From contig CAMWXM010000004.1 in NCBI GenBank assembly GCA_947178195.1, forward strand, positions 1-32,693: a DNA stretch of 32,693 bases, written 5' to 3'. The DNA comes from an uncultured Ruminococcus sp. (GTDB lineage: Bacteria; Bacillota; Clostridia; Oscillospirales; Ruminococcaceae). Below, in pieces: positions 1-31,034 of this stretch. The position numbers and the translations under genes are program-made. Position 1 is the stretch's first letter. The number at the start of each line of letters is the position of its first letter. The notes under the pieces were generated by a model. It was not told the origin of the DNA. It made no database searches and worked only from the letters and a program-made list of their open reading frames with translations.

Positions 1-648
1 GGATTTATACTATATAATACCGGCGGAAATACCGGAGAATTGTTTATAAGCAGTAAAATATGGGAGACGGCTCTTAAAATTATTTCGGCATTAGCCGGAT
101 ATGTCATTCTGACGCCCCTTATTACTGGCGGATTATGGTGGTTTTATCAGTCCGCATGCGGCAACGACAACATGAACATATTAAAGCTTTACACTGGATT
201 TAAACTTAATCTGAGAGCAGGCTTTCTTTATGGACTTATCTGGATAATGAGTATGCTTTCGCTGATACCTACAGGAGTATGCTGGGCGGCAGCTTATTAT
301 GTATTCGATCATGCTTCTGAATACGCAGATCAGGCTATTGCACTTTTTGCGGCTTTACAGCTTTTTATGCTGGGACTGTTTCTTGTTGGCTTATATCTTA
401 AATGCGTTATGTCTATGATTTTTGCGCCGTTTGTTTTTATAAAACACCCCGATATGAATATCTTTAAAATTATTAATAAGTCACGAAAAATAATATATGG
501 CTCAAAGCTTGAATGCTTAAAGCTTATTCTGACATATCTGCCGTTAATGCTGCCGATAGTAACGATACCTTTTATACTGCCGAGAGCAGTCATGGCTGTT
601 TCAGTCATGGCATGCGAGAAAATAGGAGCGGAAAATTGGGAACAATAA
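1..648 (+). CDS. Hypothetical multi-pass membrane protein, 5'-truncated by the window edge
   Basis: Frame 1 is open from base 1 to TAA at 646-648; several hydrophobic segments. The ORF-track start at 40 (TTG) is probably internal. Confidence 0.6.
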   Translation, partial: GFILYNTGGNTGELFISSKIWETALKIISALAGYVILTPLITGGLWWFYQSACGNDNMNILKLYTGFKLNLRAGFLYGLIWIMSMLSLIPTGVCWAAAYYVFDHASEYADQAIALFAALQLFMLGLFLVGLYLKCVMSMIFAPFVFIKHPDMNIFKIINKSRKIIYGSKLECLKLILTYLPLMLPIVTIPFILPRAVMAVSVMACEKIGAENWEQ

Positions 649-1952
649 TTTTAAATGTAAAAAAAGATGCGAAGCTTGAAGATTTTCTTATAAAAGAAGC
701 AGGTATTTCGAAAAGAACTATATGCAGGCTTAAACGTACAAAAAATGGTATCACACGTAACGGAACGCTTATCCGCACCATAGACAATGTATTTAGCGGT
801 GACAGGATAGCACTTGAATTTGAAGATACCAAAACTCTTGAGCCCAACGGCAGACTTCATGCAGGAATCGCTTTTGAAAATGATAATCTGGTTGTATTTG
901 ATAAGCCTGCCGATATGCCTGTACACCCTTCCATAAAGCATCAGGGGGATACTCTGGGGAATCTTTTTGCTTATAAATATCCCGGACTTACTTTTCGTCC
1001 GGTAAACCGTCTCGACAGAGATACTTCCGGGTTGTGCATTGTGGCAAAAAATGCTGTTTCTGCTGCAGCGCTGCAGGGTAATGTAAAAAAAATATATTAT
1101 GCCGCTGTGTCGGGACATATCGAAGGGGAGGGGACTATCACTCTTCCTATAGCAAGGGAATGCGATTCAATAATAAAAAGAACTGTCAGAAGCGACGGAC
1201 AGAAAGCGGTCACTCATTATAAGGCTACCTGTACGGGAGATAAATATTCCCTTCTTGAAATAAATCTTGAAACAGGCAGAACACATCAAATAAGAGTACA
1301 CTTTGCCCATATCGGGCATCCTCTTGCCGGAGATGAGCTTTACGGCGGAAATACTAACGATATTAAATATCAGGCTCTTCACTGTGGACAGCTTGATTTT
1401 AATGACCCTCTGAGCGGTGAACACATAACGGTGATTTCGCCTGTCAGAGAAAATATATTATTACTATTTAAAAAGGAGAGTAAAAAAATGGAAAAAATTG
1501 CAAGCTTTCAGGTGGATCACAGAAAAATCAACGTTGGTATGTACATATCGAGAATTGATGGGGATATAGTTACATATGATGTGCGAATGGTAAAGCCTAA
1601 CGGGGGAGTTTATCTTGAAAATCCCGCTATGCATACTATTGAACACCTTTTTGCGACCTTTGCAAGAAATTCGGAATTTGGCAACAATATCGTTTATGTT
1701 GGACCTATGGGCTGCCGTACCGGCTTTTACCTGCTTACAAGAGGAATGGACCATGAATCGGCAATAAAGCTTGTACGTGACGCTTATGGATTTATTGCTG
1801 AATATAATGACGAAATTCCTGGCTGCTCGGAAGAGGAATGCGGAAATTATAAGGAGCATAGTCTGGAAGGTGCTAAAAAGGCTGTGCTGCCTCTTCTGAA
1901 GGTATTGGAAAATTATACTGTCGAAATGTTGGAATACTCCTGGCACATGTAA
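636..1952 (+). CDS. RluA-family pseudouridine synthase fused in frame to LuxS (S-ribosylhomocysteine lyase)
   Basis: Likely TTG start at 636 after TAGGAG, overlapping the upstream stop. RluA motif RPVNRLDRDTSGL and LETGRTHQIRVH, then LuxS motifs HTIEHLFATF, GPMGCRTGFYL, ECGNYKEHSL in the same frame with no stop between. Confidence 0.85.
   Translation: MGTIILNVKKDAKLEDFLIKEAGISKRTICRLKRTKNGITRNGTLIRTIDNVFSGDRIALEFEDTKTLEPNGRLHAGIAFENDNLVVFDKPADMPVHPSIKHQGDTLGNLFAYKYPGLTFRPVNRLDRDTSGLCIVAKNAVSAAALQGNVKKIYYAAVSGHIEGEGTITLPIARECDSIIKRTVRSDGQKAVTHYKATCTGDKYSLLEINLETGRTHQIRVHFAHIGHPLAGDELYGGNTNDIKYQALHCGQLDFNDPLSGEHITVISPVRENILLLFKKESKKMEKIASFQVDHRKINVGMYISRIDGDIVTYDVRMVKPNGGVYLENPAMHTIEHLFATFARNSEFGNNIVYVGPMGCRTGFYLLTRGMDHESAIKLVRDAYGFIAEYNDEIPGCSEEECGNYKEHSLEGAKKAVLPLLKVLENYTVEMLEYSWHM
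1488..1952 (+). CDS. luxS: LuxS, S-ribosylhomocysteine lyase (internal start within the fused ORF)
   Basis: ATG at 1488 preceded by AAAAGGAGAGTAAAAAA; MEKIASFQVDHRKINVGMYISR is a typical LuxS N-terminus; metal-binding and catalytic motifs present. Confidence 0.85.
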   Translation: MEKIASFQVDHRKINVGMYISRIDGDIVTYDVRMVKPNGGVYLENPAMHTIEHLFATFARNSEFGNNIVYVGPMGCRTGFYLLTRGMDHESAIKLVRDAYGFIAEYNDEIPGCSEEECGNYKEHSLEGAKKAVLPLLKVLENYTVEMLEYSWHM

Positions 1953-19715: not shown

Positions 19716-22700
19716 ATGAAGCTTAAAAAAATTGTTACCAGTATTGTCGCAGCAGCGATGATGGTGACAGCTGCAACCGTGAACAGCGGCTATTTCTCAT
19801 TTGTAAAAACGCCGGACGCAGTATACGCTGCTCCTCAGCAGTCGACTATGTACGAGTCGTTTAGTCTGGTCTGGAAGCCTGTAAGCGGTGCGGAAGGATA
19901 TAACGTATATGTAAAGCCAGACGGCGGAAGCTATAAGCAAATCGACTCGATGCTTATAAGGCAGTACAGCGACGGCTATTTCCATGCGGACGCTGTGGGA
20001 CTTAAAGCAGGTTCATACACTATGAAAGTGGTTCCGGTAATCGGCGGCAAGGAGGATTCATCAAAGGCTTGGGAAACTCCGGGCGTGGTAAGCGCTTACG
20101 ACAGAACAGGCTTCGGCTGGGTAAACGGCACTTCTTCAGGCGCATATAATGAGGACGGTACGTTAAAGGATAACGCTCGTGTGATTTATATTACGGAGGA
20201 TACAAAGAATACCGTTACTCTTGAAGTTACGACCAGCTCAAAGGGTGCGACTACAGTGGGTACGGGTCTCCAGGAAATCTTTAATCTTTACAAAAAAGGC
20301 TATGAAACAAGACCGCTTGCAGTAAGAATTGTTGGTCAGGTGACAGATCCGGAAACTCTTGATAAGGGAGATATGACTATTGACGGCGGTGGAAAATTAA
20401 CCTGCGGTGTTACAATCGAAGGTATCGGACACGACGCTACAATAAACGGCTTTGGTTTAAGATTGAAAAATATTAAAAACTGCGAAATCAGAAATCTCGG
20501 CTTTATGCTGGTAGACAGCAATGAAGGAGATAACGTTACCTTGCAGCAGGGTAACGATCATATCTGGGTCCACAACTGCGATTTCTTCTACGGCAAGGCA
20601 GGAAGCGATAAAGATCAGGCTAAGGGCGATGGCGCTCTGGACTGTAAACTTTCTACATATGTAACCTTCTCCTACAACCATTTCTGGGACAGCGGAAAGT
20701 GCAATCTTTTAGGTTTAAGCGAAAATACAACAGACGATCTTTATGTTACCTATCATCACAACTGGTATGACCATTCCGATTCCAGACATCCTCGTGTAAG
20801 ATTTTATTCAGCTCATGTTTATAATAACTATTATGATGGAAACGCTAAATACGGAATTGGAGCAACATTGGGCTCGTCAATTTTCGCTGAAAACAACTAT
20901 TTCAGAAATTGTAAATATCCAATGCTCATATCTATGCAGGGTTCGGATACGGTTGCAGGAGGCATTTTCTCAGGCGAAGACGGCGGCATTATAAAAGCTT
21001 ATGGCAACTATATGACAGGTCAGAAGGCTTTCGTACCTTACAGCGAGAATAATACGGAATTTGACGCTTATGTTGCTTCTTCAAAGTCTGAAAAAGTTTC
21101 CGCAACGGTAAAATCTAAACAGGGATCTAATACATACAACAACTTTGATACAAATACTTCCGTAATGTATAACTGGACTGCCGATCCGGCAGAAAAAGTA
21201 CCGGAAATAGTTATGGCAGGCGCAGGACGTGCCGGCGGTGGAGATTTCAGCTTCACTTTCGATAACTCAAAGGACGATGAGGATTACAGTGTAAATCAGG
21301 CATTGATGACTTCTCTCCTCAACTATAAATCTTCTGTTATCGCTATCGGAAGCGGATTTAAATCAAATGTTGAACCTGTTACCACTACAGCAAAAGCAAC
21401 AACTCAGGCTACTACAAAAGCAACAACCAATGCAACAACAAAATCTACTAACGCAACAGCAAAGACAACACAGGCTACTACTAAATCTACAAATATAACC
21501 ATTCCTCCTGTTTCAGGGAAAATAATTTACTGTTCTCCACAGGGAAAAGTTTCTGCGGCTGGTACTCAGAATGATCCTATGGACGTACTTACGGCTATTT
21601 CAAAGGTTGAAGCTGGCGGTATGATTTATCTTCTTGACGGAACATATAAATTCGATAAAACAATTGTAATAGATAATAAAAACAACGGTTCTGCCGGTAA
21701 ATATAAGACTATGATGGCTTACCCTGGAGCAGACGTTGTATGGGATTTCTCAGCATTGGCTGTAGATGGCAACAACAGAGGGCTTGTTCTGGACGGCAGC
21801 TACTGGCATATCAAAGGCTTTGAAATAACAAAAGCAGGCGATAATGGTTTACTCTTATCTGGTAATAATAACCGTATTGAATTAATGGAATTCACAGATA
21901 ATCAGGATACAGGTTTACAAATTTCACGTTACAGAACAGATGCGGCAACTATTGACCAGTGGCCTTCAAACAACCTGGTTCTCAACTGTACATCAAAGAA
22001 TAACTGCGATGACAAAACTATGGAAAATGCGGACGGCTTTGCTGCAAAGCTTACCTGCGGCGAGGGCAACGTTTTTGACGGCTGTATGGCATACAACAAC
22101 TCGGACGATGGTTGGGATTTGTTTGCAAAAACCGACACAGGTCCTATCGGTGTTGTAACACTCCGCAATTGTGTAGCATTCAGAAACGGTTATACCGAAT
22201 TCGGCGAAGGCTTTGGCGATTGCGATGGAAACGGATTTAAGCTTGGCGGCAGCGGCGTTGGTACTGCTCATGTTGTAGAAAACTGTCTTGCATTTGAAAA
22301 CTTAAACTGCGGTTTCACAGACAATAATAACCCGAAGCTTGGCAGTCTTACAAATTGTACTGCATATAACAACGGTATGGGCGGCAAAGGAAAGCCTAAC
22401 TTCTCATGCTATCGCTGTACAGACGATGGCTGCGATTTCAAGAATGTTCTTACATACATAAATGAAGACAGACTTATATCTTCATTTGCGCGTGGTGAGG
22501 CAACACCTAAGAAATCCAATGATAAGTTTGTAGGTACTATTGAAAACTCTCTTTACTATAATTCCAAATATTACAATGTAAAAAACAAAACAAATATTGA
22601 AAACGGCGGAAAAATCGGCGATGTTGTAACTCCTGACGACGATATGTTTGTAAGCCTTTATGTTCCAGCATACAGTGGACCAATTACAGGTGATCCGGTA

Positions 22701-23015
22701 GAGTTTGTACCATTTGATTTCCATACTGAATGGAGAAATGCCGACGGCTCTGTTAACACTCACGGTTTCTGCGAAGTTAAGGACACAAGCGAATTTGCAG
22801 GTCTTGGTGCAAAGTTTGAGGCTCAGACTGTAAAGCCAGATTTAAAGGGTGATCTGGATAAGGACGGCGATGTTGATGTTACCGATCTGGTTTTAATTCA
22901 GAAATTCCTCGTTAAGTACTCGACTATTGTAACTCCGGCATATGATGTTAATGAGGACGGAAAAATCAATGTTTTCGATTTCATTACATTAAAGCGCATT
23001 ATACTTGCTAAGTAA
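19716..23015 (+). CDS. Secreted bimodular pectate lyase: FN3-like, PL1, Thr-rich linker, PL9, type I dockerin
   Basis: Signal peptide; PL1 motifs (GIGHDATINGFGLRLKNIKNCEIRNLGF, DGALDCKLSTYVTFSYNHFWDSGK, YHHNWYDHSDSRHPRVR); Thr/Ala linker; PL9-like repeats (YWHIKGFEITKAGDNGLLLSGNNNRIE..., AYNNSDDGWDLFAKTD); dockerin duplicated Ca loops DLDKDGDVDVTDL and DVNEDGKINVFDF. Confidence 0.85.
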   Translation: MKLKKIVTSIVAAAMMVTAATVNSGYFSFVKTPDAVYAAPQQSTMYESFSLVWKPVSGAEGYNVYVKPDGGSYKQIDSMLIRQYSDGYFHADAVGLKAGSYTMKVVPVIGGKEDSSKAWETPGVVSAYDRTGFGWVNGTSSGAYNEDGTLKDNARVIYITEDTKNTVTLEVTTSSKGATTVGTGLQEIFNLYKKGYETRPLAVRIVGQVTDPETLDKGDMTIDGGGKLTCGVTIEGIGHDATINGFGLRLKNIKNCEIRNLGFMLVDSNEGDNVTLQQGNDHIWVHNCDFFYGKAGSDKDQAKGDGALDCKLSTYVTFSYNHFWDSGKCNLLGLSENTTDDLYVTYHHNWYDHSDSRHPRVRFYSAHVYNNYYDGNAKYGIGATLGSSIFAENNYFRNCKYPMLISMQGSDTVAGGIFSGEDGGIIKAYGNYMTGQKAFVPYSENNTEFDAYVASSKSEKVSATVKSKQGSNTYNNFDTNTSVMYNWTADPAEKVPEIVMAGAGRAGGGDFSFTFDNSKDDEDYSVNQALMTSLLNYKSSVIAIGSGFKSNVEPVTTTAKATTQATTKATTNATTKSTNATAKTTQATTKSTNITIPPVSGKIIYCSPQGKVSAAGTQNDPMDVLTAISKVEAGGMIYLLDGTYKFDKTIVIDNKNNGSAGKYKTMMAYPGADVVWDFSALAVDGNNRGLVLDGSYWHIKGFEITKAGDNGLLLSGNNNRIELMEFTDNQDTGLQISRYRTDAATIDQWPSNNLVLNCTSKNNCDDKTMENADGFAAKLTCGEGNVFDGCMAYNNSDDGWDLFAKTDTGPIGVVTLRNCVAFRNGYTEFGEGFGDCDGNGFKLGGSGVGTAHVVENCLAFENLNCGFTDNNNPKLGSLTNCTAYNNGMGGKGKPNFSCYRCTDDGCDFKNVLTYINEDRLISSFARGEATPKKSNDKFVGTIENSLYYNSKYYNVKNKTNIENGGKIGDVVTPDDDMFVSLYVPAYSGPITGDPVEFVPFDFHTEWRNADGSVNTHGFCEVKDTSEFAGLGAKFEAQTVKPDLKGDLDKDGDVDVTDLVLIQKFLVKYSTIVTPAYDVNEDGKINVFDFITLKRIILAK
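21377..21512 (+). repeat. Low-complexity Thr/Ala/Lys linker-encoding repeat
   Basis: TTTAKATTQATTKATTNATTKSTNATAKTTQATTKST encoded by degenerate ACA/ACT/GCA repeats. Confidence 0.8.
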
Positions 23016-28622: not shown

Positions 28623-29633
28623 TTAAAGAAGAATTATTCCATTTTCTTTACATTTTTGAGTCATATCCTCGGGCCATACTGAAACCTGAACCTCGCCGAT
28701 ATGAGCCTTTTCAAGCAAAAGCATACAAAGTCTTGACTGACCGATACCGCCGCCGATAGTAAGCGGAAATACGCCGTTTACTATGTTTTTATGATAATCG
28801 TATTTAAGACGATCCTCTGCGTCAACCTCTTTCAGCTGTGAAACAAGAGATTTTTCATCAACACGGATACCCATTGAAGAAACCTCAAGTCCTGTCTTCA
28901 AAACCTCGTTCCAGATGAATAAATCGCCGTTGAGCGACCAGTCGTCGTAGTCCGGCGCACGTCCGTCATGACGTTCTCCGCTTTTGAGCTTTCCGCCTAT
29001 CTGCATTATAAATACAGTTTTGTATTTTTCGGAAATAAGCTTTTCACGCTCTTTTGAAGTTTTGTCAGGATACATATCTTCAAGCTCCTGAGAGGTTATA
29101 AAATGCACGTCTTCACAAATCTGAAGCGCAAGCTGAGGATATCTGAGGCTTACTTTTCTTTTAGTATAAACTATTGCTTTGACTATAGATTTTACTGTTG
29201 ATTTTAAAAATTCAACATTGCGGTTTTCACGGGTTATAACCTTTTCCCAATCCCATTGGTCTACAAAAATGGAATGCATATTATCTGTATCGTCATCTCG
29301 ACGGATAGCGTTCATATCAGTATAAATTCCTTCGCCGGCATTATAATTGTATCTGTAAAGAGCCTGTCTTTTCCACTTGGCAAGAGACTGGACAACCTCG
29401 GCATCGTTTTCGATTTCCTTGATCGAAAAATCTACCTTTCTTTCAACACCGTTTAAGTCATCGTTGATACCGCTTCCTTTTTTTACTATGAGCGGAGCGG
29501 TCACACGGTCAAGAGTAAGTGCAAATGAAAGTGCCTGCTGAAAAATATCCTTGATATATTTTATCGCATGCTGAGTTTCTCTTAAAGTCAGAGAGGATCT
29601 GTATCCTTCCGGGATATAAAGTGATTTAGACAT
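28623..29633 (-). CDS. asnA: Aspartate-ammonia ligase
   Basis: LRETQHAIKYIKDIFQQAL; RVTAPLIVKKGSGINDDLNGVERKVDF; FVDQWDWEKVI; GGGIGQSRLCMLLL. Confidence 0.95.
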   Translation of the reverse strand: MSKSLYIPEGYRSSLTLRETQHAIKYIKDIFQQALSFALTLDRVTAPLIVKKGSGINDDLNGVERKVDFSIKEIENDAEVVQSLAKWKRQALYRYNYNAGEGIYTDMNAIRRDDDTDNMHSIFVDQWDWEKVITRENRNVEFLKSTVKSIVKAIVYTKRKVSLRYPQLALQICEDVHFITSQELEDMYPDKTSKEREKLISEKYKTVFIMQIGGKLKSGERHDGRAPDYDDWSLNGDLFIWNEVLKTGLEVSSMGIRVDEKSLVSQLKEVDAEDRLKYDYHKNIVNGVFPLTIGGGIGQSRLCMLLLEKAHIGEVQVSVWPEDMTQKCKENGIILL

Positions 29634-29663: not shown

Positions 29664-31034
29664 TTATCTGATGCTTCCGACGGTTCTCGGATAAAGAATA
29701 ACATCTCTGATATTTGAAACGCCTGTTACATACATGATAAGACGCTCAAAGCCAAGACCGAATCCGCCGTGAGGTACAGAGCCGTATTTGCGGAGCTCAA
29801 GATAATCCTTATACAAATCAAGATTCATATTTCTTTCCTTCATAGCGGCTGTTATCTTATCATAATCCGCTTCTCTTTCACTTCCGCCAATTATTTCACC
29901 TACGCCAGGTACAAGCAGGTCTACAGCGGCAACGGTTTTTCCGTCTTCGTTCTGTTTCATATAGAAGGATTTTATCTCTTTAGGGTAATTTGTTACAAAT
30001 ACAGCTTTTTTAAATACCTCTTCTGAAATATATCTTTCATGTTCAGTCTGGAGATCGCAGCCCCATTCTACAGGGTACTGGAAATCTCTTCCGGATTCTT
30101 TAAGAAGCTTTATTGCTTCTGTGTAATCACATACGGCAAATTCGTGAGATATAAGTTCTTCTAATCTGTTAATAATGCCGTTTTCAAAGTGTGCGTCAAA
30201 GAATTTCATTTCACTGGGACATTTATCAAGAACAGTGCGGATAACTGCTTTTATCATGCTTTCGGCTTCTTCTATTACATCGGGAAGCTCTGCAAAGGCT
30301 ATTTCTGGTTCAACATGCCAGAACTCCGCAAGGTGCTTGGGAGTATTGCTGTTTTCGGCACGGAAGCTGGGTCCGAAGGTGTATATCTTGCCCATTGCCA
30401 TGGCAGCAACTTCGCCTTCAAGCTGACCTGATACGCTTAGACCTGCACGTCTGCCGAAAAAGTCATCGCTGTAATATTCTTCTTCGCTTTTATAATCGTT
30501 GGAGTATCCTATAGTCGTTACCTGGAACATTTCGCCTGCACCCTCGCAGTCGCTGCCGGTAATAAGGGGAGTATTTACATAAACATAGTTTCTGTCCTGG
30601 AAATACTGATGTATTGCTTCAGCCATTACCGAACGTACACGCAGTACAGCGTTAAATGTGTTTGTTCTTCCTCTGAGATGAGGCATTGTGCGAAGAAATT
30701 CAAGAGTATGCCTTTTTTTCTGGAGAGGGTATTCAAGGGGACATGCGCCCAGAACAGTAATAGACTCCGCATTTATCTCGACTGAGCCTTGCCTGGACGG
30801 TACTGCTGTTCCTGTGACCTTGAGAGAACAGCCGAGATGCATAGCGTCCTCATAAGCTATGCCGGATTCTTTGTCGATTACGATTTGCAGATGCTCAAGA
30901 GTAGTGCCGTCGTTCAATTCGATAAAAGCTACGTTTTTGGAGTTTCTTGCCGTTCTTACCCATCCGCATACCGTAACGGTATTTTCAAGAATGTCAGGAT
31001 TTGAAAATACTTCTTTGATGTCTGTGTGTTTCAT
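29664..31034 (-). CDS. asnS: Asparaginyl-tRNA synthetase
   Basis: Class II aaRS with OB-fold N-terminus VCGWVRTARNSKNVAFIELNDGT; YVYVNTPLITGSDCEGAGEMFQVTT; GFGLGFERLIMYVTGVSNIRDVILYPRT. Confidence 0.95.
   Translation of the reverse strand: MKHTDIKEVFSNPDILENTVTVCGWVRTARNSKNVAFIELNDGTTLEHLQIVIDKESGIAYEDAMHLGCSLKVTGTAVPSRQGSVEINAESITVLGACPLEYPLQKKRHTLEFLRTMPHLRGRTNTFNAVLRVRSVMAEAIHQYFQDRNYVYVNTPLITGSDCEGAGEMFQVTTIGYSNDYKSEEEYYSDDFFGRRAGLSVSGQLEGEVAAMAMGKIYTFGPSFRAENSNTPKHLAEFWHVEPEIAFAELPDVIEEAESMIKAVIRTVLDKCPSEMKFFDAHFENGIINRLEELISHEFAVCDYTEAIKLLKESGRDFQYPVEWGCDLQTEHERYISEEVFKKAVFVTNYPKEIKSFYMKQNEDGKTVAAVDLLVPGVGEIIGGSEREADYDKITAAMKERNMNLDLYKDYLELRKYGSVPHGGFGLGFERLIMYVTGVSNIRDVILYPRTVGSIR

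Follow-up and report, generated by a model that had tools for sequence, protein, structure and literature searches.

In the window analysed here, a stretch of 32,693 nucleotides from an uncultured Ruminococcus species, rluA and luxS form a single open reading frame, and rluA also runs through into luxS in 15 species of a second genus, all of them Ruminococcus-like bacteria of the gut. RluA is an RNA-modifying pseudouridine synthase, while LuxS acts in recycling within the methyl cycle and generates the precursor of the AI-2 signal; a report of an RluA-LuxS fusion was not found among open-access papers. The explanation that we consider likely is that the stop codon of rluA drifts, that its loss in frame 0 fuses the two genes, that free LuxS would still be initiated internally and that the fusion would be tolerated more readily than selected.

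The fused reading frame of the window

The frame extends from a TTG at 636 to the TAA at 1950-1952 (438 codons; Table 1), and its translation passes the junction without a stop, ...SPVRENILLLFKKESKK of the RluA part being directly followed by MEKIASFQVDHRK of the LuxS part. Both Pfam domains are recovered within it, which bears out the in-frame RluA-LuxS fusion proposed in the first-pass annotation: PseudoU_synth_2 (PF00849) covers residues 84-225 (103.7 bits, cut-off 26.8) and LuxS (PF02664) residues 287-424 (160.4 bits, cut-off 27). The RluA part matches TIGR00005 with 196.1 bits, above the curated cut-off of 192.7, and shows the catalytic Asp motif RLDxxTSG of the RluA family as NRLDRDTSG; against the RluD model it scores 137.2, below the cut-off of 351. 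The LuxS part matches NF002604 with 169 (cut-off 158).

Table 1. Coordinates of the rluA-luxS locus and its elements in the window
Feature	Position	Strand	Basis and remarks
Membrane-protein ORF, 5' end outside the window	1..648	+	ORF list; overlaps the rluA start by 13 nt
AGGAG Shine-Dalgarno of the rluA TTG start, spacing 7 nt	624..628	+	Sequence
rluA part, 284 codons including linker, TTG start	636..1487	+	PF00849 at 885-1310; NRLDRDTSG from 1005
AAAAGGAG, luxS Shine-Dalgarno	1471..1478	+	AAG GAG (1473-1478) read as Lys-Glu in the linker
AAA codon, start of the A7 run 1482-1488	1482..1484	+	rluA TAA of G004 lies here (comparison with L006)
luxS part with its own ATG (1488) and stop (1950-1952), 154 aa	1488..1952	+	HTIEH metal motif 1632-1646
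Whole fused RluA-LuxS ORF, 438 aa	636..1952	+	ORF list; 15 similar fused ORFs in the second genus

The AlphaFold2 monomer model of the fused protein consists of two confident domains, with low confidence for residues 280-299 and an uncertain orientation of the domains to each other (pTM 0.54). Among solved structures, the first domain is best matched by RluD and the second by structures of LuxS, and none of these best matches spans both domains. The active form of LuxS is a homodimer whose subunits share the active sites. The fused copy is the sole LuxS of the window genome. Two further RluA-like genes are present in this genome, as are three members of the nucleoside phosphorylase superfamily, which includes Pfs/MTAN, the enzyme that precedes LuxS in the pathway.

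With respect to the surroundings, the TTG start of rluA is common to two same-genus loci fetched from named records, and an ORF resembling the upstream membrane-protein ORF also precedes rluA in G010 (L036). A promoter scan gave fewer candidate sites than shuffled sequence, two in all and each of them on the minus strand, and a terminator scan returned one terminator-like site, about the shuffled mean. Elsewhere in the window, an ORF resembling asparagine synthetase A (28623-29633, minus strand) stands beside an asparaginyl-tRNA synthetase-like ORF (29664-31034, minus strand), and a large secreted, pectate lyase-like ORF with a dockerin-like end (19716-23015) adjoins the ribosomal protein cluster; these three ORFs were named by eye.

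The junction in related genomes

The survey covered 398 genomes of the family and then 125 species of the second genus, with loci fetched and read; each species is represented by one genome, mostly a draft, and locus counts are not independent of relatedness. rluA lies directly upstream of luxS in 110 loci, 94 of which have separate genes and 16 of which are full fusions, namely that of the window species and those of 15 species in the second genus. The fused state therefore recurs in the kind of search across related genomes that the first-pass annotation had suggested for the junction. The linkers of the fused loci differ (KGVFE, KENNT, KEKNI, KGDVN, QEEKK and others). At a 17th locus, G505 (L138), the junction is free of stops and the same as that of the near-identical sister G481, while an indel of about 10 nt lies inside rluA, which may be a real disruption of rluA or an assembly error. 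Long open frames in G377, G218 and G321 were also checked as candidate rluA fusions and are not fusions to rluA.

The position of the rluA stop varies between 29 nt into luxS and over 200 nt ahead of it, and in most relatives it is found within a few dozen nucleotides of the luxS ATG. Where rluA runs well into luxS, it does so in frame 0, which is fusion, at 17 loci (11 changes), in frame 1 at five (4 changes) and in frame 2 at nine (5 changes); run-ins in frame 0 are thus at least as common as those in either other frame, and fusion is not being avoided.

All ten other species of the genus of the window have rluA upstream of luxS, and in none of them are the two genes fused. The junction of one of them, G004, reads AAG GAA GGT TAA AAA ATG with the same frame and spacing as the window, and its TAA occupies the position of the AAA at 1482-1484 in the window, so that a single T-to-A difference at 1482 separates the two states at that codon. 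The loss of an rluA stop, which had been proposed from the window alone, is supported by this stop in the same reading position. Stops between the genes in relatives had also been named as an observation that would speak against the fusion; such stops are indeed present in the same-genus relatives, but they do not refute it, because the fusion is also present in 15 species of another genus, on several independent occasions.

The number of these occasions was addressed with a tree of RluA plus LuxS from which the linker was left out. The fused label changes, by gain or loss, 11 times on the quick tree and nine times on the careful tree (bootstrap range 9-11), and at least six changes are forced by supported branches. 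A single fused clade with a single origin was rejected (p-AU 8.7e-67), and the phylogeny indicates that the fusion arose several times. All members of a five-species clade (support 100/99) and of a further two-species clade are fused, while in sister species the fusion is lost or absent (G545/G579).

Other arrangements of luxS were encountered at this and other loci. In G005 (L039), two luxS genes follow rluA in tandem (877-1350 and 1501-2025), of which the native copy reads HTISH and has lost the Glu of the HxxEH metal motif, while the second, divergent luxS is intact; in G010, only a divergent luxS of this second type is present at the same place. Together, the two loci look like a replacement of the native luxS caught midway. 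G108 (L037, 1495-2778) encodes a LuxS that carries a long tail of acidic repeats and finishes in a Lys-rich stretch.

The internal luxS start

The codons at the junction of the window, AAA AAG GAG AGT AAA AAA ATG, serve a double purpose, as AAGGAG at 1473-1478 encodes Lys-Glu of the linker and is at the same time a Shine-Dalgarno sequence 9 nt before the luxS ATG at 1488; the internal ribosome-binding site and in-frame ATG described in the first-pass annotation are found exactly there. The luxS ATG is kept in all 16 fused loci, and 15 of the 16 have a Shine-Dalgarno match of at least 5 nt in front of it; among the remaining in-frame ATGs of these genes, 38 of 935 have such a match (Fisher p 3e-19, with the loci treated as unrelated). 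Matches of at least 6 nt, the length at the luxS site of the window, precede 3 of the 935 other ATGs. Lys-Glu is encoded by AAGGAG in seven of seven cases at fused junctions versus one of nine elsewhere in the same ORFs. Throughout the all-fused clade of five species, an 18-nt stretch ending in the Shine-Dalgarno sequence, AAAAATCTTTTTAAGGAG, is identical; identical four-fold sites in this clade number 29 of 101 in rluA and 15 of 55 in luxS. The RNA structure predicted at the luxS start of the window is weaker than that of shuffled sequences (z +1.46). Further downstream, the HxxEH, Cys and ECGN motifs of LuxS (HTIEH, GCRTG, ECGN) are intact in all 16 fused loci.

From these patterns of conservation, the ribosome-binding site of luxS is constrained within the fused frame, and this suggests that free LuxS continues to be produced. 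As far as sequence can tell, the conserved Shine-Dalgarno sequence and ATG show that internal initiation is kept, and they do not indicate the amount of fused protein. The one reading frame probably yields the fused protein plus free LuxS; two products from one ORF, as had been suggested for the window, would be the natural expectation because the rluA stop is lost and the internal luxS start is conserved.

Known arrangements resemble the locus in part. Tightly spaced gene pairs with translational coupling have been described in bacteria (PMC6728339, PMC10666635, PMC12548453). The unfused relatives are like such pairs in that the rluA stop is located a few nucleotides from the luxS ATG, including overlaps of -4 and -1, but the spacing at the rluA-luxS junction varies greatly (-29 to over +200), and in 16 species the stop is absent. 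An upstream stop about -4 to +20 nt from the downstream start, as termination-reinitiation calls for, is present in many unfused relatives and lacking in the window, and this mechanism cannot apply in the fused species because no stop lies between the genes.

Internal in-frame starts, on the other hand, give a long and a short product from genes such as E. coli infB and clpB. As in these genes, one ORF retains a Shine-Dalgarno sequence and an ATG inside, so that a full-length and an N-terminally truncated product would be expected, although here the short product would be an entire enzyme in its own right, belonging to a different pathway, and stop loss has given rise to the arrangement repeatedly. 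LuxS shares an ORF with another enzyme also in the LuxS-MTAN (Pfs-like) fusions of two other clostridial families (L181, L182); there, however, LuxS is N-terminal and its partner belongs to the same pathway, whereas RluA is functionally unrelated to LuxS. In another clostridial family, the frame of a TadA-like deaminase continues into LuxS (L180, 2522-3532), with LuxS again behind an upstream gene and the luxS Shine-Dalgarno sequence and ATG kept. This possible parallel is a single case and differs by its deaminase partner.

Drift, selection and the A7 run

The sequence of events that we favour begins with a compact junction, at which the C-terminus encoded by rluA reaches up to or onto the luxS Shine-Dalgarno sequence; the position of the rluA stop would drift around this sequence and the ATG. 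Loss of the stop with both genes in the same frame, as at 1482, joins them into one ORF, the state seen in 16 species. Initiation at 636 would then produce a 48 kDa RluA-LuxS protein and initiation at 1488 the normal 17 kDa LuxS. Free LuxS should supply normal, presumably active homodimers, because no other LuxS is present in the window genome and in 14 of the 15 fused genomes of the second genus.

The run of seven A at 1482-1488, correctly located in the first-pass annotation and suspected there of slippage or of hiding an indel, offers two other explanations. Slippage might set the ratio between the fused protein and an RluA which ends shortly past the junction, as the run spans the junction and a slip of +1 or -1 would end the product at 307 or 310 aa, that is an RluA carrying a short extension. 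No such run is present at the other 15 fused junctions, though, and the run of the window is unremarkable because the window holds 29 A/T runs of at least seven, so that slippage is discarded as a general mechanism and is highly improbable in the window as well. That an assembly or sequencing error at this run opened the frame is more improbable still. While a draft assembly of 446 contigs and a homopolymer at the junction of a single genome invite such a suspicion, the error would have to be a substitution and not an indel, as the relative of the same length has T where the window has A; an indel in the run cannot explain the difference to G004, because a run longer or shorter by one A would terminate the product at 307 or 310 aa and would not create a stop at the junction. 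In addition, the fusion occurs in other species that lack an A7 run, and the conserved genes of the window are intact.

A more serious alternative, albeit an unlikely one, is that the fusion is selected, as a bifunctional RluA-LuxS, or the two enzymes in a constant ratio, might be useful, for example by tethering the cleavage of SRH to sites of ribosome assembly or by tuning the LuxS level via rluA translation. The repeated origin of the fusion is in line with selection, as is the persistence of the fused state in the five-species and two-species clades over long synonymous divergence, but a rough neutral simulation keeps all five members of the larger clade open in 21% of runs, and the sister species mentioned above lose or lack the fusion. 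Run-ins in frame 0 are perhaps slightly in excess of one third (11 of 20 changes, p 0.04, a value not robust to relatedness). The control pair adk-map, whose genes lie within about 10 nt of each other in ten loci that were inspected, is fused in none of 94 genomes, which suggests that rluA-luxS fuses more often than two closely spaced genes that are presumably essential and leaves room for selection; GatD is a poorer control than adk because its matches were taken irrespective of adjacency and most of those in the second genus are only about 30% identical. Against selection, G505 retains the fused junction despite its disrupted rluA, and we know of no metabolic link between RluA and LuxS. The more elaborate proposal that fused protein beside free LuxS forms mixed dimers, links rRNA modification to methyl-cycle and AI-2 output and has been repeatedly selected appears slightly less probable again. 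A drifting stop with a retained internal start, and a fusion that is tolerated rather than selected, is most likely.

For annotation, this means that gene callers may report one LuxS-containing protein of 440-480 aa, while the functional AI-2 enzyme would probably be the internally started product of 154 aa. Within closely related species, one and the same junction occurs in all states, separate, overlapping and fused, and this natural series makes the question of drift versus selection in the fusion of operon neighbours directly testable.
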